From: Deltaproteobacteria bacterium
Lineage (GTDB): Bacteria > Myxococcota > Myxococcia > Myxococcales > 40CM-4-68-19
Direction of reading: 5' to 3'
NCBI GenBank assembly: GCA_025358085.1
Contig: JANYKT010000215.1
Coordinates: 1-39,522, forward strand
Length of the DNA stretch: 39,522 nucleotides
Part shown: one piece after another, positions 9,471 to 37,867 of the stretch
Numbering within the stretch: the first letter of the stretch is position 1
Layout: each line of letters begins with the position of its first letter
Notes under the pieces: generated by a model
Database searches by the model: none
The model's input: only the letters and a program-made list of their open reading frames with translations
Told to the model about the DNA's origin: nothing
Translations under genes and position numbers: made by a program

Positions 9471-9473
9471 GAG

Positions 9474-9929
9474 TTACCAGTTGGTCAGGTCGGCGTCCTC
9501 GCCGGTGCCGCCAGGGCGGCCGTCCTTGCCGTAGGAAAGCAAGTCGAAGTCTCCCCCGTGCGAGCCCGGCTGCAGGTAGGCGTAAGGCCGGCCCCAGGGA
9601 TCGGGCGGCACGTTCTTCTTGAGGTATGGCCCGCCCCACTTCAGCTCGCCCGTGGGCTGCACGACGAGCGCCTGCAGCCCTTCATCGCTGGTCGGATAGC
9701 GGCCGACGTCGAGGCGGAACTGATCGAGGGCCTTGTCGAGCGAGTCGATCTGCGCCCGCGCGACCTTGACCTGCGACTTGCCGACCTGCGCGAAATAGCG
9801 CGGCGCGACCAGGCCGGCGAGCATGCCGATCACAACCATGACCACGAGCAGCTCGAGCAGCGTGAAGCCGCGGTGCCAGGGCATACGCGCGCGGGCATCC
9901 CCGATTGAAGCGCCTTCGCGCCGGATCAT
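9474..9929 (-). CDS. gspG: Major pseudopilin GspG
   Basis: 151-residue major pseudopilin and first gene of the secretion operon. It has the prepilin site HRG|FTLLELLVVMVVIGMLAGLV with Glu5 present. The conserved GspG globular signatures follow: DQFRLDVGRYPTSDEGLQAL, WGGPYLKKNVPPDPWGRPY and DFDLLSYGKDG with the calcium-binding acidic loop EDADLTNW at the end. I chose the ATG at 9929 because a strong GGGGGAG site lies seven bases upstream; this gives a leader of about 22 residues, longer than usual. An internal ATG at 9884 (MPWHRG) gives the classical short leader but has no clear ribosome site. Confidence 0.95.
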   Translation of the reverse strand: MIRREGASIGDARARMPWHRGFTLLELLVVMVVIGMLAGLVAPRYFAQVGKSQVKVARAQIDSLDKALDQFRLDVGRYPTSDEGLQALVVQPTGELKWGGPYLKKNVPPDPWGRPYAYLQPGSHGGDFDLLSYGKDGRPGGTGEDADLTNW

Positions 9930-9956
9930 TGAAATGCTCCCCCCTGCTTCAACAGC

Positions 9957-9985
9957 ATCATACGACAACCTCGCCACCCGGTCCT
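9957..9985 (-). promoter_or_regulatory. Candidate promoter of the secretion operon
   Basis: On the minus strand a TATGAT hexamer (9957-9962, five of six matches to the sigma70 -10 box) lies 27 bases upstream of the gspG start. Its ribosome site falls between the two. The -35 region (about 9980-9985) is a poor match, so this would be a weak or activator-dependent promoter. Confidence 0.35.
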
Positions 9986-14902: not shown

Positions 14903-14995
14903 GGCCTGCCTCCACTTTGAGATGCCAGCAAAACCAATCATCCGCCGAACAGCGATCTCACGTTCCCGGCTGCCGCTACGATCGCCGGCAACGCG

Positions 14996-15517
14996 CTAGT
15001 CGACCACCAGGCCCTGAGCGCGGAACTGCCCGATGACCACGTCGACGCGGTCGCCCTTCTTCACCGGCCGACCCTTGTTCGAGAACACCATCCAGTAAGC
15101 CTTGCCCGTCTCGGGCGCGCCGGTCTGGCGCAGTTGACCGATCTTCGACATCGTCGGCACCACCAAGCTGACGCCGGCCCGCGGGTCGATCAACGACGGT
15201 TCGTTCTTCTTCTCGTTGAGCGCCGCGGCCTTGTCCGGGTCCAGCACCCGGTAGCTGAAGCGCACGACCTCGCCCGACTCTGCCAACCTGACGGTGACGT
15301 CGTCGATGCCCCAGATCTGCTGGTAGAAGAGGCCGGCGCGACCCGCGAAGCGGCCCGGCTGGTAGGGCGACGACTTGGGAGCCTGATCCGCGGCGGATTG
15401 CTTCGTGGTGTCGGGCTTCTTTTGCGACCGCTCGGCAGCAGTGGCCCCGACGCAGCCAGCGAGCACGACGGCGAGGAACAACGCGCCCGGCAAAGAGTTC
15501 AACATGGCGCTTATCAT
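14996..15517 (-). CDS. Lipoprotein of unknown function
   Basis: 173-residue protein with a signal peptide and lipobox VLAG|C near residue 20. A polar Lys/Gln/Ser linker (about 28-50) leads to a compact domain (about 60-173): IWGIDDVTVRLAESGEVVRF, YRVLDPDKAAALNEKKNEPS, GKAYWMVFSNKGRPVKKGDR and the C-terminal VVIGQFRAQGLVVD. I do not recognise the family. The pattern of short beta strands and the phrase 'YRVLDPDKA' suggest a small all-beta domain. Two Met codons (15517 and 15505) could start it; neither has a good ribosome site. It lies between the Spy-like gene and the LolA-like genes in the same direction. Confidence 0.7.
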   Translation of the reverse strand: MISAMLNSLPGALFLAVVLAGCVGATAAERSQKKPDTTKQSAADQAPKSSPYQPGRFAGRAGLFYQQIWGIDDVTVRLAESGEVVRFSYRVLDPDKAAALNEKKNEPSLIDPRAGVSLVVPTMSKIGQLRQTGAPETGKAYWMVFSNKGRPVKKGDRVDVVIGQFRAQGLVVD

Positions 15518-15570
15518 ACCACTCGGCGGGTCACTGAGAGAAACGCGCCCCCGCGGGAACGAGTGGGCCT

Positions 15571-16089
15571 TCACCTTGACCCGCCTGCGTCCGGCACTGC
15601 CGTGGATTTGGGTCTGGTGAGCTGCATCCAATGCTCGACGTCGGGTCGCTGGGCGGTATCTGTGCCGGGTGCTGGCTTCGCCGCTTGGTACCTCAGCCTC
15701 TGCTCGTCTTTCAGCATCGCGCGGATTCGATCTCCCGTCCGGTCCAGGATGGCCCGCATGGCGTCCATGCGGTCTGCGCCAGGGATGGCCGGGTCGCCCC
15801 GGACTCGCCGGATCTGCTCGGCTTGACTCCTGAGGATTTTCCTCAACTCGTCTTGCTGCCGAGCGTCGAGGTCGAGCCCCTTCGAGAGCATCCTGACACG
15901 CTTCTCAAGTCCAGAGCGCGCGACGCGGGGCCGCGCGTTGCGCCGGGCCGGCTCAGCTTTGCGCGCTCCGGCCGCCGGTGCCACGTCGGCGTAAGCAGGC
16001 GCGCAAACAAGGCAGGCGATCACGCACAACAGTCTTGGAGAGCTGCTCCAAGGGCCTGTCTTGCTCGTCGATGATGCCGATCTGGTCAT
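15571..16089 (-). CDS. Spy/CpxP-like exported helical protein
   Basis: 172-residue exported protein. The hydrophobic signal core LLCVIACLVCAPAYA precedes a mature chain that is almost entirely helical and charged: RVRMLSKGLDLDARQQDELR, KILRSQAEQIRRVRGDP and LDRTGDRIRAMLKDEQRLRY. The 'LDLDARQQDELRKIL' segment matches the LTxxQ-type motif of the Spy/CpxP/ZraP family, periplasmic chaperones or metal-stress proteins. The ATG at 16119 lies inside a strong hairpin, so the ATG at 16089 is preferred, although it has only a weak ribosome site. Its position just after the giant oxidase gene suggests a periplasmic chaperone for these copper proteins, which is inference. Confidence 0.65.
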   Translation of the reverse strand: MTRSASSTSKTGPWSSSPRLLCVIACLVCAPAYADVAPAAGARKAEPARRNARPRVARSGLEKRVRMLSKGLDLDARQQDELRKILRSQAEQIRRVRGDPAIPGADRMDAMRAILDRTGDRIRAMLKDEQRLRYQAAKPAPGTDTAQRPDVEHWMQLTRPKSTAVPDAGGSR

Positions 16090-16149: not shown

Positions 16150-19100
16150 CTAGTTGCCCGTGTAGCCAAGCGTCTGGGTCGCCAGCGCGGCTCCAGTGTC
16201 GGTTACAGTCAGCGTCCCTGCGATCGTGTTGAGCGTGCCTGCCGGCGGCGTGTAGGTCACGTTGACCTGGCAAACCGCGCCGGCAGCCAGACCTGCTCCG
16301 CCGATCGGGCACGCGCTCGTGCCTAGATTCGCCGCGCTGTATGAGCCCGGGTTGGTCTGACCGGCGTTGACGGCGATGCTGATGCTGGCGATGACCAACG
16401 GTGCGGTGCCGCCGTTGGTGATGGTCGTCACCACGCTCTTGGCGGTCCCGGTTGCCGGGGTTGAAGTCAGCACCGTCGATCCACCACCAAACGTGACGGC
16501 CGCCTGGGTGCCGGTGCCGGTGAGAATCGCCGTCCGGTTCAGCGTGCCACCCGCCGCGTTGATCACCGTCAGCGTCGCCGCGCGACTACCCGTCGCGCTC
16601 GGGGCGAAAGTCACCCCGATCTGGCAGGTCCCGTTCGGCGCCAGCGTCACCCCGACTCCACCGGTGATGCAGGTGTCGCTCGCGATGGCGTAGTCGCTCG
16701 CGTTGGCGCCAGTCAGCGTCGCCCCGGTGTTGCTGATCGTGATCGGCCCGATACCAGTGTTCGTATACGTGAAGGCATGCGCCGCGCTGGTGGTACCCAG
16801 CGGTTGGTTCCCGAACGCCGGCGTACCGGCCAGCGTCGCGGAGGCCGACTGGCCCGTGCCGCTCACCGTGACTGCGGGCGTGGTGGCGGCGTTCGGCAGG
16901 TGCACCTGCATCGTCGCAAACCGCTGTCCAGCCATGACACCGGCCGGCGTGAAGGTCACGTTGATCGTGCAGGTCGAGCCCACGGCGATCGGCGTCGCGC
17001 AGGTGTTCGTCTGCCCGAAGCTGAGCGGGTTGAGGCCGCTGAAATCGATCGTTCCGACGGTCAGCGGTCCGACGCCCGTGTTGGTGATCGTCACCGGCTG
17101 CGCCGCACTGGTCGTGCCCAACTGCTGGGCCGCGAAGGGTGGCAGCGAGGCCGGCGACGCGCTACCCGAAGGCTGCTGAGCCGAACCGCTCAAGGAGGTC
17201 TGCAGCGGCGTCACCACGGCGCTCTGCAGGACCACGTTCAGCGCTGCGCTGCGTGGACCCTTGCTCCCAATCGGCGAGAAGGTCACGTTGATGGTGCAGG
17301 CCCCACCCACCGGGAGGGTGACCGGGAAGGTCCCGCAGGTGTTGGTCTGCGCGAAGTTGCCCGGGTTGGTACCACCGAGCGCGATACCGTTGATCGTCAG
17401 CGGCCCGATGCCCGTGTTGCTGAGCGTCAACGCCTGCGGCGCGCTGGCCGTGCCCACCTGCTGGGGGGCTGCGAACGTCACCGCCGACGGCGACAAGCTA
17501 CCCGACGGCTTTTGGGTCGTTCCGCCCAGGCCAACTTGCAGCGGCGTGGTCGCAGCTCCCGGCAGGGCGATGTTCAACGTCGACGTCGGTGTCAGCGTGA
17601 CTCCATTCGGTGTGAACATCACGTTGATCGTGCAGCGCGCACCGACCGCCAGCGTCGTCGGCAGCGTGCCGCAGGTGGTGCTGGCGATGGCGAAGTTGGC
17701 CGGGTTGGGCGCACCGAACGCGAGGTTGCCGATGGTGAGCGGTCCGGTGCCGGAGTTGCTGAGCACCACCGGCTGCGGCGCGCTGGTGGTCCCGATCTGC
17801 TGGAGCGCGAACGTCAGAGACGTCGGTGCCACCGCGCCCGAGGGCGCCGTGACCGTGAACGGCAGGCTGTTGCTAGTCCCGACAGGCGTGGTGACGTTGA
17901 CATAGTGTACCGCCAGCATAGTGAACGCATTGATGTTGAACGTCGCCTCGATCAAATTGGCGGTGACCACGGTGAAGGCGACCGTGATGTTCGTAGAATT
18001 CACTGTCACCGCAGTGGCGCCGGTCAGGTTTTTCCCGACCAGATTCACGGTGATGGTCTGGTTGCGCGTGGCTGTGTTCGGAGTGATCGAGTTTAGCGCC
18101 GGTCTGTCTTGGCCCGCGGCCTGGAATTCGATCGCGCCGATGTCGATGGCGGTCCCTATGTCCGGTCTCGGGTTTCCGAAGAAGTCGGTCGGCGGCGCTA
18201 GCTTCCCCGCCACAGTATTGGCGGTGATGAAGTCGATCGCCGGAGAACCCGCCGCTAGTGCGAAGTTGCCGAGCTGCGCGCCGGTTACCGGGCTTGTCAA
18301 TGCCAGCGGGCCCCACCGCATGTTGACCCAGTTGTTGCCCTCGTCCACGGTCGCCGACGGGGCCAGGCTGAACACGAGCGGGTTCTGGCCGCCGACCGCG
18401 CCCATCAGCTCGTTGGTTCCGGGTGGCACCTGCCAACCCATGATGCCGTTCTCAGGTGGCGTGCGCGAGCCGTTGCAGTACTGGCTGACGATGGGGCTCG
18501 TGACCGGAGCCAGGTTGTTCGAGCCGCCGTAGGGCGCAATGACGGTGAGCGCCGAATACGCCGGGGCGAACCCGTCCGCACTGTGGTTGGTCAGACCGGT
18601 GTCGCCGCGTACGCCGAGGTCCCAATAGCTCGACGGGACAACAGTCGCGGGAGCCGCGGGATCGATGGGACTGCAGCTGCCCGTAGCCGTCTGGGATCCA
18701 GCCTGCGTATTGGTGAACGCGTTGTACAGCGTCACCTGGTGCTGCTGGCTTTGGTGATTCGAGAGGAATCCGCCGCCGACGCCGATGACGAACGAGCGAT
18801 TCTGCCAAATCACGTCGTTGTACAGCAGCGGAACCGAGTAGTTGCGGCAGGACCATCCGGTGGCCGTGTTGACCCCGTGCCCTGGCGGGCAGGTGACGCC
18901 CGCGGGCATGTTTAACGCCAGCTGCACGCTGTTCCTCGCGCTCGCCAGGCCGGCCACCTGGGGGCACGAGCCTGTGCCGGTGTTCACGGTGCAGATGACG
19001 TTCTTGGTGGGGTCGACCGGCGCGCTGGCCAGCTGCGCGAACAGCGAGCCGAAGAGCGGTCCTGCCGACGCCGTGGCGTCGTTGCTGACGATGGTGTTGT

Positions 19101-22100
19101 TGACGATGTTCACGAAGAGCGCGTCCTGGAGGGAGATGCCGGCGCCGTCCCAGCCCGCGACGTTGTTGGCGATGACGTTGTTGGTGACGTTGACCGAGTT
19201 CCAAGCGGCGAAGTTGACCAAGCCGTTAGGGAAGTTGAGCACGTCGGTGCCGTTGACGTGCTGCAACCGCAGGCCGCCGCCGCTGCCGCTGCTGGCGGCG
19301 TTGCCCAGGATCAGGTTGGCGTTGATGAGCAGGCCCGGACCGGTGCCGTCGCTCGGCCCCACCGTGCCGGGCGTCGGGACGCAGTCCTGATCGTTGGTCA
19401 CGCCGCAGAGAGGATCGACGTCGGGAGCGCCCATCACCAGCACGCCTGCGCCGTTGGTGGTGATGCTGGGGTTGGTGCTCTGGTTGAAGACGACGGTGTT
19501 GTGCTCGATGGCGCCCTGCTTGATGAACCCGATGTGGGCCATGCCGCCGCCGTCGCCCGTGCTCATGTTGCCGCACACCCAGTTGTTGGTGAACTTGTAG
19601 TAGTCGGCGCCGTTGCAGATGCTGACGCCGCCCGCTCCCGCCGGGGTGGACGAGAAGAGCTGGTCGCCCATCGAGGAGTTCGAGTTCACCGCGTTGTTGT
19701 GGACGTTGACGTTCATGTTGTAGCAGAACGGCAGGGCCTGACCCGGGATGTTGGTGTTCAAGGTGGCCTCGCACGAGCCCGGGAAGGAGAGGGGCGCCAC
19801 GCCGGCCGCCTCAACGTCGACGTGCTCGCCCTGGCCGACCGTGATGCCGCCCGACATGGTTCCGGTGTTGTTGTTGACGCGGTTGTTGGCGATCTGGAGG
19901 TTGTGCGCCCAGCCGTGCACGAAGATGCCACCGCCGCCCTGGGAGCTGTTGGTCAGGCTCAGGCCGTCGATGCTCGACGGGTTGCAGTAGTAGTTGCTCG
20001 GATAAGGGTTGGTACCATCGGGGTTGCTCTCGCAATCCGACGCGGTCAGGAGGGTCACGTTGTTCGGGAACGCAGACCCTGCGCCCGTCCCGTAGGGATC
20101 CGGCGCGCCTACGCCGTTGACGCTCAAGTTCACGCCCTTGCCGAAAACGGTGACGGCGGCTCCTTCCTTCGCGCCCATCAAGCTGGGCTCGATCAGCTGC
20201 TCCGCCAGGTTGCCGTTGACGGTGCTATCCCAGGCCACCAAGCTCTCCATCGGCAGTCGGTCCACGATCATGGCCGGGTAGACGGCGCTGCCGTTCGGCG
20301 TGCCCACTAAGGTCGGGCAGCTCAGCGGGTTCGTCTTGTCCGGAGGCCGGCCGTTGGGCGTCAAGCCGAAGAGGCACGCGACCTCCAGGCGCCAGGGGTT
20401 GAGCCTGCCGGCGGGCTGCGGGTTGCCGTCAATGACGCTGGACGCTGCGCCGACGCCCTGCAGGCGGACCGGCTTCCACATCAAGACCATCTCGGTGTAC
20501 TTGCCGGCGGGAAGGATGATCATGTCGCCCGGCATCGCGGCGTCGATCGCCGACTGGATCGTCTGGCCGGTGGTCAAGAGCGTCGGCTTCTTACCGCCGA
20601 TGGTGACCGTCACCGCGTCGATCGAGGTCTTGCCGTTGCCATTCGTGATCACCAGCTGACCGCACTGCGCGGCCGAAGTACCCGTGGGCATGTACTGAGC
20701 CTGCTGCTGAACGGCGCAGGCCGGAACGCCGGAGGGCACCGTCACCGTGAGCGTCGTGTCGCTCCAACCGGTGATCGTCGCTGGGACGCCGCCGATGGTG
20801 ACGCTCGAGACGGCAGCGCAGCTCGTGCCCACGGCGGTGCACTGGCTTCCAAAGCCATAGTGGCGGGTGACCTTCGATTGATTGTACGGAGCGGCCGTGG
20901 CCGAGGGCCCGGAGTAGCCGTAGTTTTCCACGATTTGGTTGCCCAGCGCGTTGATCGTCAGCGTGCTCGCGCTGGTCACGGGCGCGTTGACCCAGGGCCC
21001 GGTGAGGTCGCTCGAAGTGACCGACGCAATGGCCGGCGTGGCATCCGGATAAGCACAGTCAGGATGGTTGAAGCCTTCCGAGAAAGCCGCCGTGGGCACG
21101 ACTGGCGTGTCGAAGTAACCGGTCTGGCCGGGCATGAACGGCAGCTCGTAGCAGAACTGGCTATAGCCGGGCTGGTACTTGGGATCGAGGCCGCCGCTCT
21201 GGGCCCAGCTGGCCGGCGGGTTCGGCGTGTCCGAGCCGGAGTCGTTCATGCACACCACCATCATGGTGGGGGCATAGCCCGTCGGGTTGGGCGGGTTGAC
21301 CTCCCAGGTCGAGTAGCTCAGGCCGTTATAGGTGCCGAACGCATCGGCGTACGTGCGGCCGACCTCGTTGCCCGACCAGTCCTTGATGGAGACCGGCAGG
21401 TTCGGAGGTGAGAACTTCTCGCCGAACTGCGGGGAGAACGGATCGAACTCACCGGTGAAGTCATCGCTGATGATGCCGGTGAAGTGCGACGCGGCGTGGG
21501 TCGAGGTGTAGATGAAGAAGTCGGTCAGCACGTTAACCTGCTCGGTCAGCGTCACCTCTTTGCGGTCGCAGAGGTTGCGAGTCGCGCCGGCGAACGGCGC
21601 CACTTCGGCCGACCCAGGAAACAGGCTCATGAAGTCGGGCACTACGCGCGCTGCTCCGGCGCACGGCCAGATCTGTGATTGGGTCTTCTGCGCGTCGTTG
21701 CCGCCGTTCGGATTCGCGCCCAGGCTCATGGTCTGGTTCTGCGGATTGTTCGGGTTGTACGCGGCGCCCACTGCGGCCTGGTCGGGCAGGATGAAGACGT
21801 TGCCGAACCCGGCGAACTGCTGCGCCACCGGCGCGATGAAGTTGTCGCCGATGAGGATGTTCTTGTCCTCCTCCTTGACCAGCTCGTAGCCCTGGGGAAC
21901 GACGACCTCGACGACATACTTGCCGGGCGGCAGCATCGGCATACCCGCGCTGCCCGGACCGAAGGAACCAGGCGTCGTGCTACCGCCGTAGCGATATGGA
22001 TCGTTGTTGTCAGGATTCGTCACGCAGGCGGTGCAGTTCGTGGCCGTCGGCTTTCCGCTATTCGGATCCATCGCGGTCACGCTGGGGAAGCTGAACATGC

Positions 22101-25100
22101 CGTCGTACGGCGCCGGCTGCAGCTGATTCCAAGTGTGCATACCGTCGTAGCACTTGAACTGGGCCTGGTACGGGAGGGGCTTGGTGTTGCCGGCTCCGTT
22201 CATGAGGAGGTCGAGCCACTCAGGCTGGTTCCTCAGCCCGTAGAAGAAGACGTCGCTGGTCGACTGGCCAGGGCAGCTGATGTTCGGAACGTAGACAGTA
22301 TTATTGAAATTAGCGTTGCAGCCGGCAGGGGTGTTCGTGCCGGTGCACGCGGTGCCGCTCTTGTCGTTGAACGAGACGGGCGTCGTTCCGTCGGCGCCGA
22401 GGCGGAAGCCCTGCGCCCAGTCGTCGAAGCTGCTGGTGTCGGTGTGGTCCACCAGCGTCAGGGTCGGAGTGACCCCGTCCGAGGTGACGCCCTCCGTGTA
22501 GAGGTTGATCCTGACGTGCGGGACCATCGGCTCCCAGCTCAGCTGGGTGAGAAACTGCGGATCATCGAACGGCCGGGTCGAGGAGTACACGACGTGGCCG
22601 TGGATGCCGCCGGTCTCGCCGGCCACGAACGGCTTCTTGCCGAACTCGAGGAAGTTGTTCTGTCCCGCGTACCCCTGCCAGCCGTAGGAGCCGAACCAGA
22701 ATGGCGGATCGATACGGCCAGTGGAGTTGTTCGTGGTCAAGCTCTTGACGGAGTTCCCGAGCGCGAACTGGGCCCGGGATGAGGTGCAGTCCGCACCCTC
22801 GGCGCAGTAGACGGCGCCCGGCACGGACAGCTCGGGCGGCAGCGGAGTCTTCTCGAAAGTATTGGCCAGGTGGTCGCCGATGTTGGAGCTGCCGCACGGT
22901 GCCTGCGCACTCATGTTTCCCAGGCACGCAGTGCCGCCCGGTGAGCTACCGTCCACGGGCCCGCCAGAGTCATAGACCACGTGCGTTCCCGTGCTCTTGA
23001 AGCGGGTGGAATCGGTCTCCACCATATACCAGCTGAACAGTGGGAAGACCTCGTTGAAGGCAGCGTAGCCGTTCAGGTCGGTGTTGTTGAAGTTCGAGAA
23101 GCTGCCATCGCGGAAGCGGATGTTGGTCGGGACCAGGGCGAGACCAGCCTTGTTGGCATCGGAGACGCCGTTGCCGTTGTCGTCGAGGAACGTCCGCGTA
23201 TAGATGTTCGCCTGCCACTGGTGCGATGCCATCTCGCCCATATGGACGAGGGAGTTGGGAACGATCGTCCCCTGGCATGCTCCCGCCAGAGTAGACCCCG
23301 CGCAGCCCAGGCCCACGGGCGTGGAGATGCCATCGACGATCTGGTCGTTCCACTGGTCGAAGACGGTGATCTTCCAGTTGCCCGCCGGGATGCCATTGAA
23401 GGCGAAATTCCCGGCACTGTCGCACCTGGTGAACGCGAACTCCGCCCCGTCCGGATCTCCCAGGCTGACGTAGCACTGGGTGAACGCGAAGCTGGTGCGA
23501 CTCCCGCTACCGTAGAGCCGCTCGTCAGGCGTGCGGCTCATGCGGGCAGTGGTGACCTGACCATCCACCTTGTTGGTGCAAGAACCGGCGGGCAGATTAG
23601 CGCAGAGGCTACCGAGGCGGTCGTTGATGACCTTGGGGTTGGCGAAGCCGATGGTGACGTGGTAACCGGCCGGACCGAACTCCTGGAAGTAGCCCGGCTC
23701 GCCGATGCGCAGGAAGGCGTCGTGACCCTTCTGGCCGTCCAGGGTGTTGGTCTGCAGCCACTCCTCGCCGCGGGCGATCCGGTCGGAGCCAGGGGTGGCG
23801 ACGACCGTGTATCGCCCCGGGTAGAGGTTGGCGACCACCGCTTGACCTGCCAGCGGCGACAGGGTGACACCGTCCGACTCGTAGGTCGGGCAGGTCACGA
23901 TCATGCTGGTGATGCCCTTCTGGCATCCCTTCGCCTGAGGATTGGCCGCACACTGGGCGGGCGTCGCCGGGAGGCCTGGCAGGAGGGCGTTTTGAGTCAC
24001 GTTCTGCGAGATCGGGCAGGCGTCGTTGCCGGTGCGCGGATCGATGGTGCCAGCCAGGCTGTTGGAGAGCGGCTGGTTGAACATGTCGTAGGTCGGTTGG
24101 CCGGTCGAGTCACCGGTGCCGCCGGCCACGTCAAAGAGGGTGACGTTGAAGCTCCCGAGGCCGGGCTCCTGCGGCGAGAGCACGTCGATGCCGCCGCCCG
24201 CGTTGTGTTCGCCGTCGAGCGGGTAGTCGTCCTGGAAGACGAACACGGACAGCTTCGCCGTCGGGTACGGGCTCGGCTGGGAGAACACCGTCACGCTCCC
24301 CTGTCCCGGAGCGATTTGCGCGCCGCCCATGCCGTGGCCGCAATGTCCAGCGGCGGTGCAATCCGGCTGGCCGCCGAATCCGGAGATGAACGGTTGGGCC
24401 GCGTCGCCCGGCAGCACGGAGATGTAGTACCGCTTGCTCGGATCCAGGTGGACCATGGTGGGGTCGGTCGTCTGCAGTCCGGCGAGCGCGCTCCCAACCC
24501 GGCAGGCGCCGTTGCCGACATCACACACGGCGGGCACTCCCCCGAGCGTCTGAAGGGACTCGCAGGAGAGCTGACCAGTGCAGCCGGTGGCCATGATAGG
24601 CATGTGGCTGGTGTGGAAGTTCGTTCCGAAGAACGGCGGGGCGCCCTCGGGCGTGACCGGCTTGCAGTTGCCCGTGGAGGTTCCCCCGGGGTTCAAGTTG
24701 AGCGAGCAGGTGGGGTCGATGAAGAACGTCCGGTCTTCCTCGATGATCCAGCGATAATCCTGTAGTCCGTTAGCGCCGATGGGCAAGGGCTGCTTGCTTG
24801 CGCCGTCGAGGATGGTGACGGTCGGGCCATTCCCAACTGGGAAGTTCAGCGTCGCCGTCGCGGTTGCAACCTTGCCCAGAGCGGTCTGAGCCGAGAAGCT
24901 GAACGTGTAGCTGCCCGCCGCGGTGACATTCGCGGTGAAGCCACCATTCGCATCGATCGACACGGACCCCGTCCCGGGGCCGCTAACACTACTCAAAGTC
25001 ACAGTCGCCGGGACCGGCTGCTGGGTCGCGGAAGCCGGGGTCGCCCCCATGATCGAGAGGGGCAGGCCCGCGCCATCCGTGCAGGTGGCCAGGAGGCCGG

Positions 25101-27792
25101 GAGGCTTGACGGCGATGTAGCTCGACACGTTTGAACTAAAAGAAAGCGGGGGAGTCGTGGAGCAGGCAACACCAGTGTCGGTGATGTTCGTCGCACCCAG
25201 GGTCACCGTCGCCGTGACGGTGGCCTTGTTGCTCGCCTGGTAGACGAACGAATCGGAGGTCGAATTCCCCGGGATGATCGTCGCCGTCGCGCTGGCGCCG
25301 GTACCGCCGCTGCCCGTGATCGTGACCGAGGGCACCGTGGTGTAGCCGCTGCCGATGTAGGTGACCGTCAGGCTGGTGATGATTCCGCCGAGATTCGCGG
25401 TCCCTGTGGCGCCGGTGCCGGTGCTGTCAGCGATGGTCACCGCGGGCGCGGCGGTGTAACCGCTGCCACTGTTGGTGACCATGACCGAGGTGATGACGCC
25501 CGTGCCGGGCGCGGTCGATGCCGTGATCGCGGCGTTGCACGTGCCGCCGCTGTCCGTGATGGTGACGGTGGGGGCGGTGGTGTAGCCGCTACCCGGGGTG
25601 GATGTGATTGTCATGCTGCCAGCAGCCGCGGTCGCCTGGACCGTGGCCGGCGTTCCGCCCGCAACATTGGGAACGCTGACAGCAACGCTCGGACTCACGC
25701 AAGTGGTGCCCGGGAGGCTGACGGAGAACGAAGCGCCATAGGCCACGACCGGCGACGCCGTCGCGGGGGTACCAGCGCCAGGGGGCGGGACGATCGTAAC
25801 GGCCGGAGCCGTATATCCGCCGCCAAAGCCTCCGGTCAGGGTCGTCGATGCGGTCCCGCCGACCGTGACGCTTCCTACGCCGTTGGTGCCGACGGTGGCC
25901 GTGGCAGTGGCCGTCGTGCCGCCCACCGTTCCCGGCGGAGCGATGGTGACGACCGGCGCCGAGTAGCCGATACCGCCGCTCCCCAAGGCCAATGAGATTC
26001 CGGCTGCGCTGGGCACGTAGGTGAACGTGCCGTTGGCATTCAGCGTCAGCTGACCGTTGATCGGTGGCGTGAGCAGTCTGGCACCGAGCACGTTGGTGTC
26101 GTTGGCGAGAACGCCCCTGGCCGGATTCGACACAGTGAGGGTCCGGCCCGCGACCATGGCGTTGTAGAAGTCATTTTTGGCGACGACGGCGCCCGCGTTG
26201 CTCGCGGCCGCTGCAGGCACGCCGCCGCCATTGACGCCGATGTATGCGAGCATGCCGCTGTCCCGATCCACGGCGTTTCCCGAGAGACTGAGCTCGCGGT
26301 CGTAGATGGGCAGGGCTGGCGCCCCGGCACTCGGGACGTTGATCATCACGTCATAGGTTTTGCCCGCCGCCATGAACACTTCGTTCTGCACCCGGGCGAG
26401 GCCTGGCAGCACGTTGCCGTCTTCGGCGATCAGCGAGAATCCAGGAGTGCCAACCGCGCCCCCGGTCGTCGGGCCGACGATCGCCGGCACGTGCATATGA
26501 AGGCCGGCGTTGACGAGGCGCACCAGCAGGTTGCCTGTCACCGGCGCAGCGCTGGTTCCCGCCGGGATCGCCGGGAAGAGCGAGTTCGTAGCGTTGGTCT
26601 TGTCGAACGAGACGCCGTTGATTAAGTAATAGAATGGCGTGTAATTGACCACGGGCGGATAGCAGGCCAATGCGCCGTTGCTGCACGTCGTGCTGTTGGT
26701 GAGGGCCAGCGCCGCCACCGCCGTGCCCCCGCTTCCAACGCCGCCTTGGAACGAGATGATCGGAGCCGCCGTATAGCTGCCCGGGGTGGTCAGAACGATA
26801 GAGGTCACCTGGCCCAGCGTTGGACTCCCAACGGTGAGATCGACAACGGCCGTCGCGATCGCGCCCGTCACGGCCCCGGTCACGCCGTTGAACAGAACAG
26901 TGGGGGGCGACGTGTATCCCGTGCCTCCGCTGACGAGCTGGATCGAGGCGACCGGCGACGAAGAGTACGGCCCGTAGGTAGCAGCCTCCTGGAATCCGAC
27001 CGTGTTGACCGCGTTGTTGACCGCGCCGTTCAGCCAGGGATCAATCTCACTGAAGACCAGCGGCAGCTCGGCATTGTACTGGACCGCCGTCGCACCCGTT
27101 CCATAGGCGGTGCCAAGAGCAGTCGCCGTGGGCGGGGCGGTGACCACCAGGACGCCGTACAGGCCCATCGGAACCTGGATCGACGGGTGCGTGCCGGACT
27201 GGATCAGGTAGGTGCCGGGATTGAGGTTGTTCCAGGAGAGCGTGGTAGCGACCGCAGATCCAGCCGCGACCTCGGTCGCGAACGACTGCACGCGATCCGC
27301 CTGTATCTTCGGAACCCACACCTTGCCGGTGTTCGTGATCGGCCAGGTCGTCCCCCTGTTCTCGTGCGCGGGGCTTTTCGCGGTCGTTCGGATCGAGCCG
27401 AGACCGCCGCCCAACTGGCCCACGATCACCAGCGAGGTGGGGATGGAGTTGGGCACCGTGGCGCCCGTCGGCGTGAACGACAGCTTATTGGTCAGGTTGA
27501 TGGTCAAGCTGGTCGTTGTGCCGGTATAAGGCACGGTTATTACGACCGGCGACCAGACGGCTGCGCTGGTGGAGCCGTTCAGCGACGAGCAGCCCGCGGG
27601 CTGCACCGTGGGCTGCGACGCGTCGCAGCTGAAGCCCCACATCGGCACGGCCGTGCCGTCTGGCAGCGCGGTCGTGGACGGCCCCGCGGACAGATTGACC
27701 GCCTGAGCGACGGACGCGCCGCTCGCGAGGAGAATGAGACCTGCCGCGATTCCCGGCTTGATCAGGAGCAACTTAAGGGTGTCAGATCGCAT
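16150..27792 (-). CDS. Giant secreted mosaic protein with degenerate multicopper-oxidase domains
   Basis: 3880-residue protein with a signal peptide (about 1-31, ending AQA). Two cupredoxin-like domains (about 32-560) resemble those of the 547-residue neighbour (shared VFSEIDP near 243, YLINGVS, AEDGNVLPG) but have lost most copper ligands; HMH at 432-434 is a remnant. An Ig-like ANDTN/GTFTYVP domain (about 565-860) is split by a block of GYT-type repeats. SdrD-like and carboxypeptidase-regulatory-like beta-sandwiches follow to about 2280 (e.g. TFLDDNGNGVSDANKAG near 1530). Then come an IPT/TIG domain (about 2307-2400), a right-handed beta-helix (about 2405-3190), a second IPT domain (about 3231-3314) and five choice-of-anchor-D (ASH) repeats to the end. 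AGGAG lies nine bases before ATG. No membrane anchor or sorting signal is visible. Probably a surface scaffold for the oxidase. Confidence 0.9.
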   Translation of the reverse strand: MRSDTLKLLLIKPGIAAGLILLASGASVAQAVNLSAGPSTTALPDGTAVPMWGFSCDASQPTVQPAGCSSLNGSTSAAVWSPVVITVPYTGTTTSLTINLTNKLSFTPTGATVPNSIPTSLVIVGQLGGGLGSIRTTAKSPAHENRGTTWPITNTGKVWVPKIQADRVQSFATEVAAGSAVATTLSWNNLNPGTYLIQSGTHPSIQVPMGLYGVLVVTAPPTATALGTAYGTGATAVQYNAELPLVFSEIDPWLNGAVNNAVNTVGFQEAATYGPYSSSPVASIQLVSGGTGYTSPPTVLFNGVTGAVTGAIATAVVDLTVGSPTLGQVTSIVLTTPGSYTAAPIISFQGGVGSGGTAVAALALTNSTTCSNGALACYPPVVNYTPFYYLINGVSFDKTNATNSLFPAIPAGTSAAPVTGNLLVRLVNAGLHMHVPAIVGPTTGGAVGTPGFSLIAEDGNVLPGLARVQNEVFMAAGKTYDVMINVPSAGAPALPIYDRELSLSGNAVDRDSGMLAYIGVNGGGVPAAAASNAGAVVAKNDFYNAMVAGRTLTVSNPARGVLANDTNVLGARLLTPPINGQLTLNANGTFTYVPSAAGISLALGSGGIGYSAPVVTIAPPGTVGGTTATATATVGTNGVGSVTVGGTASTTLTGGFGGGYTAPAVTIVPPPGAGTPATASPVVAYGASFSVSLPGTTCVSPSVAVSVPNVAGGTPATVQATAAAGSMTITSTPGSGYTTAPTVTITDSGGTCNAAITASTAPGTGVITSVMVTNSGSGYTAAPAVTIADSTGTGATGTANLGGIITSLTVTYIGSGYTTVPSVTITGSGGTGASATATIIPGNSTSDSFVYQASNKATVTATVTLGATNITDTGVACSTTPPLSFSSNVSSYIAVKPPGLLATCTDGAGLPLSIMGATPASATQQPVPATVTLSSVSGPGTGSVSIDANGGFTANVTAAGSYTFSFSAQTALGKVATATATLNFPVGNGPTVTILDGASKQPLPIGANGLQDYRWIIEEDRTFFIDPTCSLNLNPGGTSTGNCKPVTPEGAPPFFGTNFHTSHMPIMATGCTGQLSCESLQTLGGVPAVCDVGNGACRVGSALAGLQTTDPTMVHLDPSKRYYISVLPGDAAQPFISGFGGQPDCTAAGHCGHGMGGAQIAPGQGSVTVFSQPSPYPTAKLSVFVFQDDYPLDGEHNAGGGIDVLSPQEPGLGSFNVTLFDVAGGTGDSTGQPTYDMFNQPLSNSLAGTIDPRTGNDACPISQNVTQNALLPGLPATPAQCAANPQAKGCQKGITSMIVTCPTYESDGVTLSPLAGQAVVANLYPGRYTVVATPGSDRIARGEEWLQTNTLDGQKGHDAFLRIGEPGYFQEFGPAGYHVTIGFANPKVINDRLGSLCANLPAGSCTNKVDGQVTTARMSRTPDERLYGSGSRTSFAFTQCYVSLGDPDGAEFAFTRCDSAGNFAFNGIPAGNWKITVFDQWNDQIVDGISTPVGLGCAGSTLAGACQGTIVPNSLVHMGEMASHQWQANIYTRTFLDDNGNGVSDANKAGLALVPTNIRFRDGSFSNFNNTDLNGYAAFNEVFPLFSWYMVETDSTRFKSTGTHVVYDSGGPVDGSSPGGTACLGNMSAQAPCGSSNIGDHLANTFEKTPLPPELSVPGAVYCAEGADCTSSRAQFALGNSVKSLTTNNSTGRIDPPFWFGSYGWQGYAGQNNFLEFGKKPFVAGETGGIHGHVVYSSTRPFDDPQFLTQLSWEPMVPHVRINLYTEGVTSDGVTPTLTLVDHTDTSSFDDWAQGFRLGADGTTPVSFNDKSGTACTGTNTPAGCNANFNNTVYVPNISCPGQSTSDVFFYGLRNQPEWLDLLMNGAGNTKPLPYQAQFKCYDGMHTWNQLQPAPYDGMFSFPSVTAMDPNSGKPTATNCTACVTNPDNNDPYRYGGSTTPGSFGPGSAGMPMLPPGKYVVEVVVPQGYELVKEEDKNILIGDNFIAPVAQQFAGFGNVFILPDQAAVGAAYNPNNPQNQTMSLGANPNGGNDAQKTQSQIWPCAGAARVVPDFMSLFPGSAEVAPFAGATRNLCDRKEVTLTEQVNVLTDFFIYTSTHAASHFTGIISDDFTGEFDPFSPQFGEKFSPPNLPVSIKDWSGNEVGRTYADAFGTYNGLSYSTWEVNPPNPTGYAPTMMVVCMNDSGSDTPNPPASWAQSGGLDPKYQPGYSQFCYELPFMPGQTGYFDTPVVPTAAFSEGFNHPDCAYPDATPAIASVTSSDLTGPWVNAPVTSASTLTINALGNQIVENYGYSGPSATAAPYNQSKVTRHYGFGSQCTAVGTSCAAVSSVTIGGVPATITGWSDTTLTVTVPSGVPACAVQQQAQYMPTGTSAAQCGQLVITNGNGKTSIDAVTVTIGGKKPTLLTTGQTIQSAIDAAMPGDMIILPAGKYTEMVLMWKPVRLQGVGAASSVIDGNPQPAGRLNPWRLEVACLFGLTPNGRPPDKTNPLSCPTLVGTPNGSAVYPAMIVDRLPMESLVAWDSTVNGNLAEQLIEPSLMGAKEGAAVTVFGKGVNLSVNGVGAPDPYGTGAGSAFPNNVTLLTASDCESNPDGTNPYPSNYYCNPSSIDGLSLTNSSQGGGGIFVHGWAHNLQIANNRVNNNTGTMSGGITVGQGEHVDVEAAGVAPLSFPGSCEATLNTNIPGQALPFCYNMNVNVHNNAVNSNSSMGDQLFSSTPAGAGGVSICNGADYYKFTNNWVCGNMSTGDGGGMAHIGFIKQGAIEHNTVVFNQSTNPSITTNGAGVLVMGAPDVDPLCGVTNDQDCVPTPGTVGPSDGTGPGLLINANLILGNAASSGSGGGLRLQHVNGTDVLNFPNGLVNFAAWNSVNVTNNVIANNVAGWDGAGISLQDALFVNIVNNTIVSNDATASAGPLFGSLFAQLASAPVDPTKNVICTVNTGTGSCPQVAGLASARNSVQLALNMPAGVTCPPGHGVNTATGWSCRNYSVPLLYNDVIWQNRSFVIGVGGGFLSNHQSQQHQVTLYNAFTNTQAGSQTATGSCSPIDPAAPATVVPSSYWDLGVRGDTGLTNHSADGFAPAYSALTVIAPYGGSNNLAPVTSPIVSQYCNGSRTPPENGIMGWQVPPGTNELMGAVGGQNPLVFSLAPSATVDEGNNWVNMRWGPLALTSPVTGAQLGNFALAAGSPAIDFITANTVAGKLAPPTDFFGNPRPDIGTAIDIGAIEFQAAGQDRPALNSITPNTATRNQTITVNLVGKNLTGATAVTVNSTNITVAFTVVTANLIEATFNINAFTMLAVHYVNVTTPVGTSNSLPFTVTAPSGAVAPTSLTFALQQIGTTSAPQPVVLSNSGTGPLTIGNLAFGAPNPANFAIASTTCGTLPTTLAVGARCTINVMFTPNGVTLTPTSTLNIALPGAATTPLQVGLGGTTQKPSGSLSPSAVTFAAPQQVGTASAPQALTLSNTGIGPLTINGIALGGTNPGNFAQTNTCGTFPVTLPVGGACTINVTFSPIGSKGPRSAALNVVLQSAVVTPLQTSLSGSAQQPSGSASPASLPPFAAQQLGTTSAAQPVTITNTGVGPLTVGTIDFSGLNPLSFGQTNTCATPIAVGSTCTINVTFTPAGVMAGQRFATMQVHLPNAATTPAVTVSGTGQSASATLAGTPAFGNQPLGTTSAAHAFTYTNTGIGPITISNTGATLTGANASDYAIASDTCITGGVGVTLAPNGTCQIGVTFAPSATGSRAATLTVINAAGGTLNRTAILTGTGTQAAVTFGGGSTVLTSTPATGTAKSVVTTITNGGTAPLVIASISIAVNAGQTNPGSYSAANLGTSACPIGGAGLAAGAVCQVNVTYTPPAGTLNTIAGTLTVTDTGAALATQTLGYTGN
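16153..17860. repeat. Five ASH (choice-of-anchor-D) repeats at the C-terminus of the giant protein
   Basis: Five protein-level repeats of about 110 residues, each with the pattern Q-(x)-GTTSA, then a TNTGxGPLTI-like strand, N(P/A)xxF or DYAI, a cysteine pair about 15 residues apart flanking a TLxVGxxC-like segment, and INVTFTP. The first three are most alike at DNA level. The recurring cysteine pair fits an extracytoplasmic location with one disulfide per repeat. Confidence 0.75.
25262..25995. repeat. Five GYT-type repeats inserted in an Ig-like domain
   Basis: On the minus strand this segment encodes five units with a core of the form G-(S/G)-GYT-x-(A/V)P-x-VTI followed by a Gly/Thr/Ala-rich strand. 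The sequence before the block (GTFTYVPSAAG) and after it (SDSFVYQASNKATVTATVTL) reads as one Ig-like domain of the VCBS/cadherin-like type when the block is removed. Confidence 0.7.
26700..26960. repeat. Two GYT-type repeats inserted in a cupredoxin domain
   Basis: The minus strand encodes GGTGYTSPPTVLFNG... and PGSYTAAPIISFQGG..., two units of the same kind as those at 25262-25995. They sit between VFSEIDP and YLINGVS, two motifs that are only about 50 residues apart in the 547-residue neighbour. Confidence 0.65.
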
Positions 27793-27810: not shown

Positions 27811-29454
27811 CTAAAACGATTCGTCGATTTTGAATTCGCGGGAGTCGACCAGCATCATCATCAACATTCCGCCTGGGAAGATGTTGCTCGTCGTGATCTC
27901 GCGCTCGTTGTGGGAGTGCCACATGAAGGCGAAGCCGGCCTCACCGGAAGCTGAGTTCGCGACGGTGCCCGAGGGCCGGGTCGTGCCGGTCGTGCCGCAC
28001 GAGCCGGCGGCGGCACCGGGGCTGCATCCTGTCGCTCGGCGGGTCGCGTCTGGCCCCAGGTAAGGACTGCCGCCATACCAGGCGCCGTTGGCGAAGAGAT
28101 TCGGATCGGGCAGCGTCACCGGGCCTCCGGCCCCCACGTCGCCGAACGGGTTCGCCTGGACCGGCTTGTTGTGGTCCTGGCACCACTCGAAGTAGTTCAG
28201 TGCCGTGGGATCGGCGGTGTTGTAGCCATTGGCGTCCGGAGTGCAGGATAGCTGGGCGGCCGGGTCCGGGGACGACGGAGTGTGACCGTACATATCCCAG
28301 TTCAATCCTCTGCCCGTGAAGTAGAAGATCCCATCCATCGCCAGGCCCGGCGTGGTCGTGGTGGTGAAAAGGAGCGGCCCGGCGAGGCTGTTCGGATCGG
28401 TGGCGCTCAGGATCAGGTTGCCGTCGCGGCCCAGGATGCGCACGTGATTGCCGTGCTCGTGAAACGGGTGCTGCCAGCGACCCTGGCCGATGATGCGGAG
28501 TAGCACCTGCTCACCCGGGTGCATGTGCGGGTTGCCGTTGTAGGGCTGGTTGGGATACTGCGCCGCATAGTTCGGATCCATGTCGTCCGGCATCGAGCGG
28601 CCGTTGATCATGAAATAGGCCGGATGATAGGGCTCGGTCGGCACCTGCAAGGTGGTTTGGCAGGGGTTCCCGGTTGGATTGTTGATCTGGCAGGCAGCGA
28701 TGGCGTTGATCTGTTCCGACGCCTTGGTATGGACGTTGGGATCGATCTCGGAGAACTGGAAGAGGTACTCGCGGTCGTAGCAGGTCTTGGCGTGACCGTA
28801 GGCCGCCGTCGCGAGACGGAAATCAGTTTCGCCGTTGTTTTTCTCGGCAGCAAGATTCGAGGCAGCGATGCCCGACGTGCAGGCGGCCGGGATGGTCTTC
28901 GGTATCACGATGACCGCGCCGTAAAGGCCCATCTCCACCTGCAGGTCACCCTGGGTGCCACTGGAATAGGCGCGGGTTCCAGCGGAGGACGCGATGAACG
29001 AGTAGGTCACAGTGTTGCCAGGCGTCGCCTCACGCGTCAGCAGACCGGCGACGCCGCCGGTCGTGGTCACGTTGAACCCCGGGAAGAGGATCGACGTGTT
29101 ACCCGCCACGGCGGGAAGATTGTTAGTCAGCGTGACGGTGACGGCGTCGCCTTCCGTGACGATCAGCGTCGGCCCCGGCACCTGCATCGTCGGGCACTTC
29201 GCGCCCGTCATGGCCGGGGCAAAGCCGCTTGGCGCGCTCGTGCAACCGTAGCCCCAGGAATAGATCATTTTCCCGTCTGGCTGCGAGACATACGCCGGCT
29301 GCGCGGTCAGGTTGAAGATTGGAGCGCTGGCTCCGCCGGTGATCCCCGGCGCCGCCGCGATGGCGGCGGTCGACAGCAGCCCTGACGCAGCCATCGCGAG
29401 CAGGGAGAAAGCGCGGCAATTTGCTAACACGGATTTCGTTGGCATTGAATTCAT
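27811..29454 (-). CDS. Secreted multicopper-oxidase-type protein, half site without type 1 copper
   Basis: 547-residue exported protein with two cupredoxin domains after a signal peptide (about 1-34). The first (about 35-200) has the family start PDGKMIYSWGYGC and PGPTLIVTEGDAVTVTLTNN, but lacks copper ligands (AYSSGTQGDLQVEMG where HSH would stand). The second (about 240-540) has HPFHEHGNH (His329, His332, His334) and WHSHNERE (His513, Ser514, His515) with GGM at 528-530. Ser514 replaces the type 1 copper cysteine, so this chain can supply trinuclear-cluster ligands but no blue copper. It starts three bases after the stop of the 703-residue gene, with its ribosome site inside that gene's end. 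Probably a heteromeric partner of that protein. MCO relationship is clear; substrate is not. Confidence 0.88.
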   Translation of the reverse strand: MNSMPTKSVLANCRAFSLLAMAASGLLSTAAIAAAPGITGGASAPIFNLTAQPAYVSQPDGKMIYSWGYGCTSAPSGFAPAMTGAKCPTMQVPGPTLIVTEGDAVTVTLTNNLPAVAGNTSILFPGFNVTTTGGVAGLLTREATPGNTVTYSFIASSAGTRAYSSGTQGDLQVEMGLYGAVIVIPKTIPAACTSGIAASNLAAEKNNGETDFRLATAAYGHAKTCYDREYLFQFSEIDPNVHTKASEQINAIAACQINNPTGNPCQTTLQVPTEPYHPAYFMINGRSMPDDMDPNYAAQYPNQPYNGNPHMHPGEQVLLRIIGQGRWQHPFHEHGNHVRILGRDGNLILSATDPNSLAGPLLFTTTTTPGLAMDGIFYFTGRGLNWDMYGHTPSSPDPAAQLSCTPDANGYNTADPTALNYFEWCQDHNKPVQANPFGDVGAGGPVTLPDPNLFANGAWYGGSPYLGPDATRRATGCSPGAAAGSCGTTGTTRPSGTVANSASGEAGFAFMWHSHNEREITTSNIFPGGMLMMMLVDSREFKIDESF

Positions 29455-29457
29455 GGC

Positions 29458-31569
29458 CTATCTCCCGCCCATGCGAGTCGAGCGCGGTGTCGTCTTGAGG
29501 CTGCCAGACGATGCGGTGACGGCGGCGCCGGTGAAGGCCGCGTCAACAATGCGCACCTCGGTCATCAGCCCGCCAAAGTTCTCGGCGTCGTTCGACAAGT
29601 GATCCAGGTTCGGCGTGTAGAGGTAAAACACCTGGCCCGCCGTGTAGCCGGTCGCATCCAGGATCACGTCGAGCGATTCGCCGCCGCCGAGCGTGATCGA
29701 ATTGGTGTTGTAGTACATGTTGTTGCCGGCCTGGTCGCGCAGGAGCTTGGCGTTGTAGCCGATCACCTTCATCGGGATTCCGAGCAAGGCGAGCGTCTGG
29801 TACTCGGTGACGTCGAGGTCCGAGATGCGCAGCAGGGCCTTCTTGCCGGCGGGGATGTTGATGATCGAGTTCATCGGCTGGGAGTAGTGCGCGCTGCCGT
29901 CGCTCGTCTGCGTCACCATTGGGTCGGCTTCGACGGTATCGGGATAGCTGCGCCCGTTGAGCAGGAAGTACTTGTCCTTCATGTCGGTGAAGCCTTCGAG
30001 GTTGAAGGTCATGCCGACGAAGTGGAAGTTGGGATCGAAGCCGTGGATCTGGATCGGATACTCGACGTCGTAGTAAGTCGAGCCGTCGCCGTCGTTGTAG
30101 GCGTAGTTGCCCGTGGCCGCGCGAGTCGCGAGATTGCCGGCCGACCCGCCGATCGGCAGCGGGTTCGAGCACAAGATGTCGTTCGCGGAATTGCAGGCGG
30201 TGCGCAGATCGCCCTGCTGAATATTGAGTCCCGCGTAAAGGGAATTGTTGAGCGGCACCCGGTTCTGCCGCGGCCGCACGTAGAGTTGGCCCACCATGCC
30301 CATCTGGAGGTGCTCTGGCGGCGTGATGTGGCAGTGCCAGAAGTAGGTGCCGGCGTCGGGCGCGAGATAGTAGTAGGTGAAGCTGCTGCCGATGTTGATC
30401 GCCACCGAGGCGTCAGGCACGCCGTCGTAGAAAGAGGAGGCGTTCGGATAGCCGTGAAAGTGGATGGTGTGCTGCTCGAAGAGGTCCGGCCGCATGATCA
30501 TGCCGACGTTGCTCAGCGTCAGAAAGAACTCGTCGTCCTCGTCGATGGCCATCAGCGGCGCCGGAATGTTGCCGTTCATCACGGCAATGTCCATGAGCTG
30601 GCGCGGATCGACGTGCCCGTCGATCGACGCGATGCTCGCCGCGGTCGCGGACGTTGACGCGGTGACCTGGGCCAGGCCCGGGGTGCCGGCGACATACTGG
30701 AACGCTTGGCTGTTGGGGAATGCCAGCGTGGGATTCAGGAAGATGGTGTTTCCCGGCCCGGAACTTCCGACTGCGGTCACTTTGACAACGCCGTCGTATG
30801 GGCCGGTAGCGGGATTGGCGCCGGTGCCGGAGATGTTGACCGATTCGCCCAGCTTGAACGGCGAGGGCCGGTTCAGGATCACGGTCACCGTATTGGGGGT
30901 CACGCCGCTCGAGGCGCAGCTCGCCGCGACCAGCGAGTTGCTACAACCCTCGCTGATGTCATAGATGCTCTCGATGTTCGGGATGTCGGGCGAAAGGCCG
31001 ACGGCGCCGTTGAAGTTGAACGTCCCCAGGGTGCCGGCGGAATAGCTCGGAGTATCAGTCGCGCCGTTGGTCGTGGCCGGGTCGCCGGGCTGGAGCGGCG
31101 CCAACGGCGTCGCCAGATTTCCCGGAAAGACTGAATTGAAGACGCTGGGGAACTCGGTTCCCGGCTTGCCGGCGGCGATGTCCGCGAGTCCCGAAAGTGG
31201 GCCGAACGAGAACATATAAGTCTGCGTCCCGTCGGCCATGGTGGCATAGCCGTCGCCGCCCGAGACCTGCTGGCACTTGACGGCGCCGTTGGTGTTGGTC
31301 GAGGGAACCAAGTACCCGGCGGTGCCGGCCGAGCCACCGCACCCGTTGAGGACTGAGCACTTGTACTGGGTCGCCGCGGTGTAGGCCGGCTCGGCGCTGG
31401 TGGCCGTCGGGTCGGGATGCGTGATGGTGCTGGTCGGACATTGCACCTGGAACGACTGCGCGCCCGCGGGCAACGCGAGTAGGAACGCGAGAGTGGATAG
31501 CAAGCCCGGCGAGAGCGAGAGAGCTGCACCCCGGATTACAGCAGTAGACGTTCTCACAAGCCTGGTCAT
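29458..31569 (-). CDS. Secreted multicopper oxidase, half site with type 1 copper
   Basis: 703-residue exported protein with a signal peptide (about 1-38, LAFLLALPAGA|QS). The N-terminal cupredoxin (about 75-435) carries HTIHFHG (His367, His370, His372) and WHCHITPPEHLQMGM (His412, Cys413, His414, His420, Met425). This is a complete type 1 copper set plus four trinuclear-cluster histidines. The domain is interrupted by a small beta insertion (about 205-300). The second cupredoxin (about 480-690; KYFLLNGRSYPDT, ALLRISDLDVTEYQTLALLG) has no copper ligands. It starts with a perfect AGGAGG site at 31573-31578. It heads the three-gene oxidase operon. The trinuclear site needs four more histidines, which the next gene product supplies. 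Confidence 0.9.
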   Translation of the reverse strand: MTRLVRTSTAVIRGAALSLSPGLLSTLAFLLALPAGAQSFQVQCPTSTITHPDPTATSAEPAYTAATQYKCSVLNGCGGSAGTAGYLVPSTNTNGAVKCQQVSGGDGYATMADGTQTYMFSFGPLSGLADIAAGKPGTEFPSVFNSVFPGNLATPLAPLQPGDPATTNGATDTPSYSAGTLGTFNFNGAVGLSPDIPNIESIYDISEGCSNSLVAASCASSGVTPNTVTVILNRPSPFKLGESVNISGTGANPATGPYDGVVKVTAVGSSGPGNTIFLNPTLAFPNSQAFQYVAGTPGLAQVTASTSATAASIASIDGHVDPRQLMDIAVMNGNIPAPLMAIDEDDEFFLTLSNVGMIMRPDLFEQHTIHFHGYPNASSFYDGVPDASVAINIGSSFTYYYLAPDAGTYFWHCHITPPEHLQMGMVGQLYVRPRQNRVPLNNSLYAGLNIQQGDLRTACNSANDILCSNPLPIGGSAGNLATRAATGNYAYNDGDGSTYYDVEYPIQIHGFDPNFHFVGMTFNLEGFTDMKDKYFLLNGRSYPDTVEADPMVTQTSDGSAHYSQPMNSIINIPAGKKALLRISDLDVTEYQTLALLGIPMKVIGYNAKLLRDQAGNNMYYNTNSITLGGGESLDVILDATGYTAGQVFYLYTPNLDHLSNDAENFGGLMTEVRIVDAAFTGAAVTASSGSLKTTPRSTRMGGR

Positions 31570-33989: not shown

Positions 33990-34539
<550 letters not shown>

Positions 34540-34540
<1 letters not shown>

Positions 34541-36540: not shown

Positions 36541-36547
36541 ATTTAGC

Positions 36548-37853: not shown

Positions 37854-37867
37854 AGTCTCCACGCCAA

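Follow-up and report, generated by a model that had tools for sequence, protein, structure and literature searches.

Positions 1 to 39,522 of contig JANYKT010000215.1, from a deltaproteobacterial assembly (GCA_025358085.1; Myxococcota), make up a stretch of 39,522 nucleotides referred to here as the window, which carries on its minus strand three consecutive cupredoxin genes, A, B and C. The products of these genes probably form a secreted A-B-C heterotrimer in which one of three ancestral multicopper oxidase sites is kept, at the interface between the first cupredoxin domain (D1) of A and the second (D2) of B. An earlier note on this DNA had proposed that a multicopper oxidase active site is split between A and B, and such a composite A-B site is well supported by the comparisons of ligands, domains and gene linkage described below.

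Copper ligands of genes A and B

The two genes, their junction and the metal-binding motifs are located as follows (T1, type 1 copper; cluster, trinuclear copper cluster).

29458..31569, minus strand: gene A (alpha), 703 residues, signal peptide and two cupredoxin domains (open reading frame, Pfam)
30451..30471, minus strand: HTIHFHG, A residues 367-373, with T1 His367 and cluster His370 and His372; aligned to HTIHWHG of 3g5w D1
30295..30339, minus strand: WHCHITPPEHLQMGM, A residues 411-425, with cluster His412 and His414 and T1 Cys413, His420 and Met425; aligned to HCHVNVNEHVTMRGM of 3g5w D1
29440..29465, minus strand: A-B junction, TAG stop, 3 bases, ATG
27811..29454, minus strand: gene B (beta), 547 residues, signal peptide and two cupredoxin domains, D1 de-liganded and D2 with four cluster His
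28450..28470, minus strand: HPFHEHG, B residues 329-335, with cluster His332 and His334; aligned to HAMHSHG of 2zwn D2
27898..27921, minus strand: WHSHNERE, B residues 512-519, with cluster His513 and His515 and Ser514 at the T1 Cys position; aligned to FHDHVDTH of 2zwn D2

Homologues were gathered by a scan of GTDB genomes that gave 195 relatives of A, the best 80 of which were kept. Residue conservation was counted over 87 homologues of A, 83 of B and 76 of C, and deeper alignments of 18 rows for A and 19 rows for B-D2 both reached ∼33% identity. Records of the A relatives name Acidobacteria, Burkholderia, Paraburkholderia, Cupriavidus, Collimonas, Granulicella, Sideroxydans and Gammaproteobacteria, and a locus in a Sideroxydans metagenome-assembled genome (L014; L numbers denote loci) is a member of the family. 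Gene B is also present, at 61% identity, on the megaplasmid of Cupriavidus metallidurans CH34, a model organism for metal resistance (L107, 1343425-1344927).

The open reading frames given in the earlier note are exact (A, 29458-31569, 703 residues; B, 27811-29454, 547 residues; both minus strand), and its residue assignments proved correct: H367/H370/H372, H412-C413-H414, H420 and M425 in A, and H329/H332/H334 and H513-S514-H515 in B. In A, D1 holds a T1 copper set together with four cluster His. H367, H370, H412, C413, H414, H420 and M425 are each found in 87/87 homologues and H372 in 86/87, and the ligands are still invariant once rows of 33-48% identity are included in the 18-row alignment. 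Of the three proteins, only A has a T1 copper set in its N-terminal domain. In B, the four cluster His (H332, H334, H513 and H515) are each conserved in 83/83 homologues and remain invariant in the 19-row D2 alignment to ∼33% identity. H329 varies (82/83, with Phe in L098), as expected if it is not a ligand. These ligand sets are far beyond chance.

Pfam identified Cu-oxidase domains in both A and B. The best PDB match of A-D1 in a profile search was D1 of the type-C enzyme 3g5w (E value 5e-18), with the ligands in register. The B-D2 profile matched only four PDB entries up to an E value of 1, the best being D2 of 2zwn (1e-3) followed by D2 of 3g5w (0.11); the ligands were again in register with both, although the match to 3g5w would carry little weight by itself. 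A and B were also folded together by AlphaFold as read-through chains, in which TAG or TGA is read as a residue purely as a modelling device, for the window pair and for the compact homologue L115. The two models confirmed the fold of each subunit. Both domains of A superimposed on 3g5w with a Z score of 25.1 and a root mean square deviation (rmsd) of 2.9 over 270 aligned residues (VIA-align), and the B homologue of the L115 model superimposed on 2zwn and 3g5w with a Z score of 30.4 and an rmsd of 2.0 over 268 aligned residues. Within D1 of A, residues ∼200-310 form a ∼100-residue insertion that is found in some homologues (610-710 residues) and is missing from most (∼510-590 residues).

Profile comparison of A with B paired domain with domain (E value 3e-20) and revealed complementary losses. 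HTIHFHG and WHCHITPPEHLQMGM of A lie opposite TSILFPG and YSSGTQGDLQVEMGL of B, with WHCH of A opposite YSSG. Conversely, HPFHEHG of B lies opposite YQTLALLG of A, and WHSH of B opposite YTPN of A, counting back from a shared FGG/FPGG segment. A-D2 and B-D1 are recognisable, de-liganded counterparts of metal-bearing domains, a relationship that the earlier note had missed. In all homologues examined, the D1 half-site occurs only in A and the D2 half-site only in B, never both on one polypeptide. Judged by these ligands, neither A nor B alone is able to make a trinuclear site, and the oxidase would probably function solely when the different subunits are combined.

The junction of the two genes has the three-base spacing described previously, between the TAG of A and the ATG of B. 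In 62/82 homologues, the stop of A lies within TAGGAG, the ribosome-binding site of B, and this overlap suggests that the synthesis of A and B may be translationally coupled. TAG is over-represented as the stop of A (71/82); recoding was considered as a reason and rejected, since this TAG is part of the TAGGAG with which B recruits the ribosome. What looked like a natural A-B fusion in L039 proved to be an artefact, the search match having run through a TAG stop. No A and B in one chain were seen among 150 genomes of the Collimonas order or 99 relatives of the window genome.

Gene C and conservation of the gene set

Downstream of B lies a much larger gene, at the start of which profile comparison places a third subunit.

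16150..27792, minus strand: gene C, 3880 residues, gamma unit fused to a large surface scaffold with Ig-like, SdrD_B, NosD-like repeat and choice-of-anchor Q and D domains
26203..27699, minus strand: gamma, two-cupredoxin unit at the C N-terminus, ∼residues 32-530, without copper ligands (hhalign to B)

By this evidence, gamma is a two-cupredoxin paralogue of B that was overlooked by the earlier note. The first 560 residues of C are ∼26% similar to B, and hhalign aligned both domains of the two proteins with 99.9% probability (E value 1.7e-35); the corresponding comparison with A gave an E value of 2e-13. As in A and B, the translation starts with a signal-peptide-like segment. C lacks copper ligands and has one conserved His, H434 (72/76). 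The distant relatives L113-L117 show the order scaffold - A - B - short cupredoxin gene - D, where D is a small secreted protein, and the short gene stands alone with 352 residues in L115 and 386 in L117. Gamma is therefore an independent unit that is fused to the scaffold in the window. Of the possible half-sites, A thus retains a D1 half together with T1, B retains a D2 half and C retains none. Residues ∼285-370 and 590-900 of C (∼25093-26940) contain glycine-rich GxGYTxxPxV repeats, one block of which lies inside gamma, between its domains.

The pairing of A and B pointed out in the earlier note is conserved across genomes: B directly follows A in 76/76 testable loci (those with room for B), and C follows in 67/67. 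Four loci that had been flagged as without B beside A were cases of overlapping or split alignments, and B is present in them. Among the 99 relatives of the window genome, all 11 with a strong match to A have B, and one further genome has a strong match to B at a contig edge. Neither A nor B was found regularly alone in these 99 relatives and the 76 testable loci. Over 71 loci, the pairwise distances calculated for the three proteins are correlated with one another (0.87-0.92); common descent by itself would also produce high values. Several genomes carry multiple A-B-C sets (2-4 copies), as in L022 and L032 on one contig (VBMV01000053.1) and L041, L048, L062 and L074 in one genome (AB60). The window's own genome contains a broken remnant of gene A (G000:C98:32023-32319; L002, L006), in which A residues ∼329-369 are joined to a segment resembling 584-691 and the active site is gone.

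The proposed heterotrimer and rival explanations

A heteromeric oxidase with the cluster at a subunit interface, as envisaged in the earlier note, fits the data because neither chain suffices, the ligands are invariant in both, adjacency holds in 76/76 loci and the two halves map to type-C halves; this part of the proposal is supported, although the read-through models did not join the half-sites. The accompanying description of one two-domain oxidase divided over two polypeptides has to be abandoned. Given that A and B are each complete two-domain subunits and that a third, gamma, is always present, a heterotrimer is expected. Known two-domain oxidases are homotrimers in which D1 of one subunit and D2 of its neighbour enclose the trinuclear cluster (PMC13151041), and A, B and gamma most likely represent a heterotrimeric variant of the type-C two-domain form. 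The type-C enzymes (Nitrosomonas europaea blue copper oxidase 3g5w, metagenome laccase 2zwn and 3gdc) likewise have two cupredoxin domains per chain with T1 in the first, share the ligand spacing and are the closest PDB sequences and folds. In those enzymes, however, every chain has both half-sites, whereas here the halves lie on different polypeptides, a third subunit has no half-site, and the homologues add a giant surface scaffold.

The following mechanism can be proposed. A, B and the N-terminus of C would descend from one type-C two-domain oxidase with T1 in the first domain. As the subunits diverged, ligands would have been lost in a complementary manner, A keeping the D1 half-site with T1, B keeping the D2 half-site and C keeping neither, so that one four-copper site out of three would be left, at A-D1/B-D2. 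C would complete the ring as its third wall and also act as a surface anchor. The exported subunits may be loaded with copper with the help of SCO1 and probably secreted via the adjacent type II system, with C holding the complex at the cell surface. The electron donor would be external and is most likely Fe(II) or Mn(II); its electrons would enter at the T1 copper of A and travel by way of a Cys-His bridge to the cluster shared with B, which would reduce O2 to water. We infer oxidase activity and an Fe(II) or Mn(II) substrate from the gene neighbours and from published expression.

Of the structure models, one leans against this arrangement. Neither read-through model shows a shared A-B site, and in that of the window (predicted local distance difference test (pLDDT) 73.7, predicted template modelling score (pTM) 0.51), the packing of the chains does not correspond to any known arrangement. 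For L115 (pLDDT 81.0, pTM 0.71), whole-chain matches were to ceruloplasmin, MnxG and factors V/VIII, with template modelling (TM) scores of 0.41-0.49 of query at 8-12 Å, and column counts suggest that A-D2 sits beside B-D1, the opposite of the shared-site contact. Contiguous pairing is favoured in a fusion model because of the covalent linker and the single-chain training structures. It is on account of this lean of the L115 model that the heterotrimer with its shared site is put no higher than probable.

The same model bears on an alternative in which the ring has the order A-B-C as in ceruloplasmin, with A-D2 beside B-D1 and the half-sites facing the ligand-free C. Separate mono- or binuclear copper sites would then result, and the complex would bind copper or transfer electrons without acting as an oxidase that reduces O2. 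The L115 fusion model does resemble contiguous ceruloplasmin or factor VIII domain pairs, but it is biased by the fusion linker. Moreover, the invariant residues are exactly the eight cluster His of a multicopper oxidase, four per chain; half a cluster has no known use, and C-D2 would supply one conserved His only (H434). We regard this arrangement as unlikely. The surface scaffold and the cytochrome c and SCO1 neighbours point to an electron-transfer chain, and A might accordingly be a type 1 electron-transfer cupredoxin with B as its copper-binding partner or chaperone, the two acting sequentially and without a shared site. This is distinctly doubtful, given that A retains all four cluster His besides T1 and that the His of B match oxidase domain 2, not a chaperone.

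Two-domain relatives are homotrimers (PMC13151041), which might suggest that A and B each build a homo-oligomeric trinuclear site of their own, but A-D2 and B-D1 are without ligands at the cluster positions in all homologues examined and this is highly improbable. That a single six-domain gene was split by a frameshift, stop or assembly error is refuted by conservation and can practically be dismissed: A, B and C do share one reading frame in the window, with TAG stops between them, but each has its own signal-peptide-like N-terminus (from translations), a ribosome site lies at the A-B junction, and the genes are likewise separate in all relatives examined, including those in which the frames differ.

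The inferred heterotrimer can be compared with other oxidases. Published descriptions of multicopper oxidases cover homotrimers of two-domain chains and single chains with three or six domains (PMC13151041, PMC3600357). Like the six-domain enzymes (ceruloplasmin, MnxG, algal Fox), the complex would have six cupredoxin domains in total and a single remaining trinuclear site. Those enzymes are one chain, however, whereas three genes with their own signal peptides are found here in every locus examined. In bacterial six-domain oxidases, T1 is located in domain 2 and the cluster lies where domains 2 and 3 meet (PMC3600357); by contrast, A carries T1 in its first domain and B supplies the partner His from its second. 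MofA/OmpB surface oxidases are surface-exposed, as is proposed for the present complex, and are likewise encoded beside SCO1 and a cytochrome c with a periplasmic-binding domain, but are single large chains, and the three-gene set is reported, in the available text of He et al. (2017; PMC5566968), not to be homologous to them. With somewhat less confidence than is placed in the heterotrimer itself, but still on balance in favour, we propose a new multicopper oxidase class: an obligate heterotrimer of two-domain subunits with a single site across two polypeptides after complementary loss, a living intermediate between homotrimeric two-domain and single-chain six-domain oxidases, with many soil bacteria secreting it and anchoring it at their surface as a metal oxidase. 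If this is correct, a heterotrimer with one composite site implies that redundant sites can be lost before genes fuse, and the proposed origin of ceruloplasmin-type enzymes becomes testable in a living enzyme. Searches that require a complete motif set per protein would then miss or misjudge such oxidases.

Gene neighbourhood and known clusters

The genes downstream of C, all on the same strand, are as follows.

14996..15631, minus strand: gene D, small secreted protein, kept after the gamma gene; homologues in L108, L113-L115 and L117-L119
13985..14941, minus strand: gene E, periplasmic protein with weak similarity to LolA; homologues of ∼50% identity in L118 and L119
13075..13947, minus strand: gene F, second copy of the E-like protein, adjoining E
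11414..13078, minus strand: gene G, monohaem cytochrome c (one haem motif) joined with a periplasmic-binding-like region; MofC-like architecture as described in the available text of PMC5566968
10663..11361, minus strand: SCO1/SenC copper chaperone (PF02630, E value 1.3e-21)
6505..9977, minus strand: type II secretion genes gspG, gspF and gspE (Pfam)
1465..4029, minus strand: secretin with a C-terminal cohesin domain (Pfam)

The order A-B-C-D-E-SCO1-G is the same in L119, and also in L118 except for an ambiguous frame of D. Matches to gspE/F/G lie ≤10 kb from A in several other loci, e.g. L009, L016, L032, L038, L067, L073 and L075. In the window, a transglycosylase gene is found among the downstream neighbours with SCO1 and the type II secretion genes.

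In Sideroxydans lithotrophicus ES-1, the Slit_1812-1818 cluster is described in the available text of He et al. (2017; PMC5566968) and Keffer et al. (2025; PMC12016527) as a tandem of three cupredoxin genes, of which two have oxidase motifs and the larger, adhesin-like third lacks them, together with SCO1, a MofC-like cytochrome and small proteins. The same text of Keffer et al. reports that the cluster is upregulated on magnetite and that similar clusters occur in Paraburkholderia, Ralstonia, Anaeromyxobacter and Steroidobacteraceae. The window follows this pattern in gene content (three tandem cupredoxin genes, SCO1 and a cytochrome), and A, B and C fit the published description, in which two of the proteins have oxidase motifs and the third is larger and lacks them. 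Likened by gene content and by that description, the window cluster is almost certainly the same as Slit_1812-1818. Neither a divided site nor a third subunit within the large protein is stated in the available text of the two papers, supplements aside, and a full-text literature search with the Slit locus tags, outside the scope of which lay most subscription journals, matched Keffer et al. only. The gene cluster is therefore already known in iron-oxidising bacteria, and within that scope no paper describing the divided site was found. A shared site, if present, would explain why three cupredoxin genes stay together in an unexplained, magnetite-raised cluster of iron oxidisers.

Further observations concern the flanks of the cluster. 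E and F are two adjacent, related LolA-like genes (13075-14941), and L118 and L119 show the E-like gene only. Besides its cohesin domain, the type II secretion secretin at 1465-4029 contains low-complexity KAAPDAKAAPDA repeats. Cytochrome c maturation genes (ccmC/E/F/G/H type) occupy 32047-38489, directly upstream of A, and are not seen in the conserved set.

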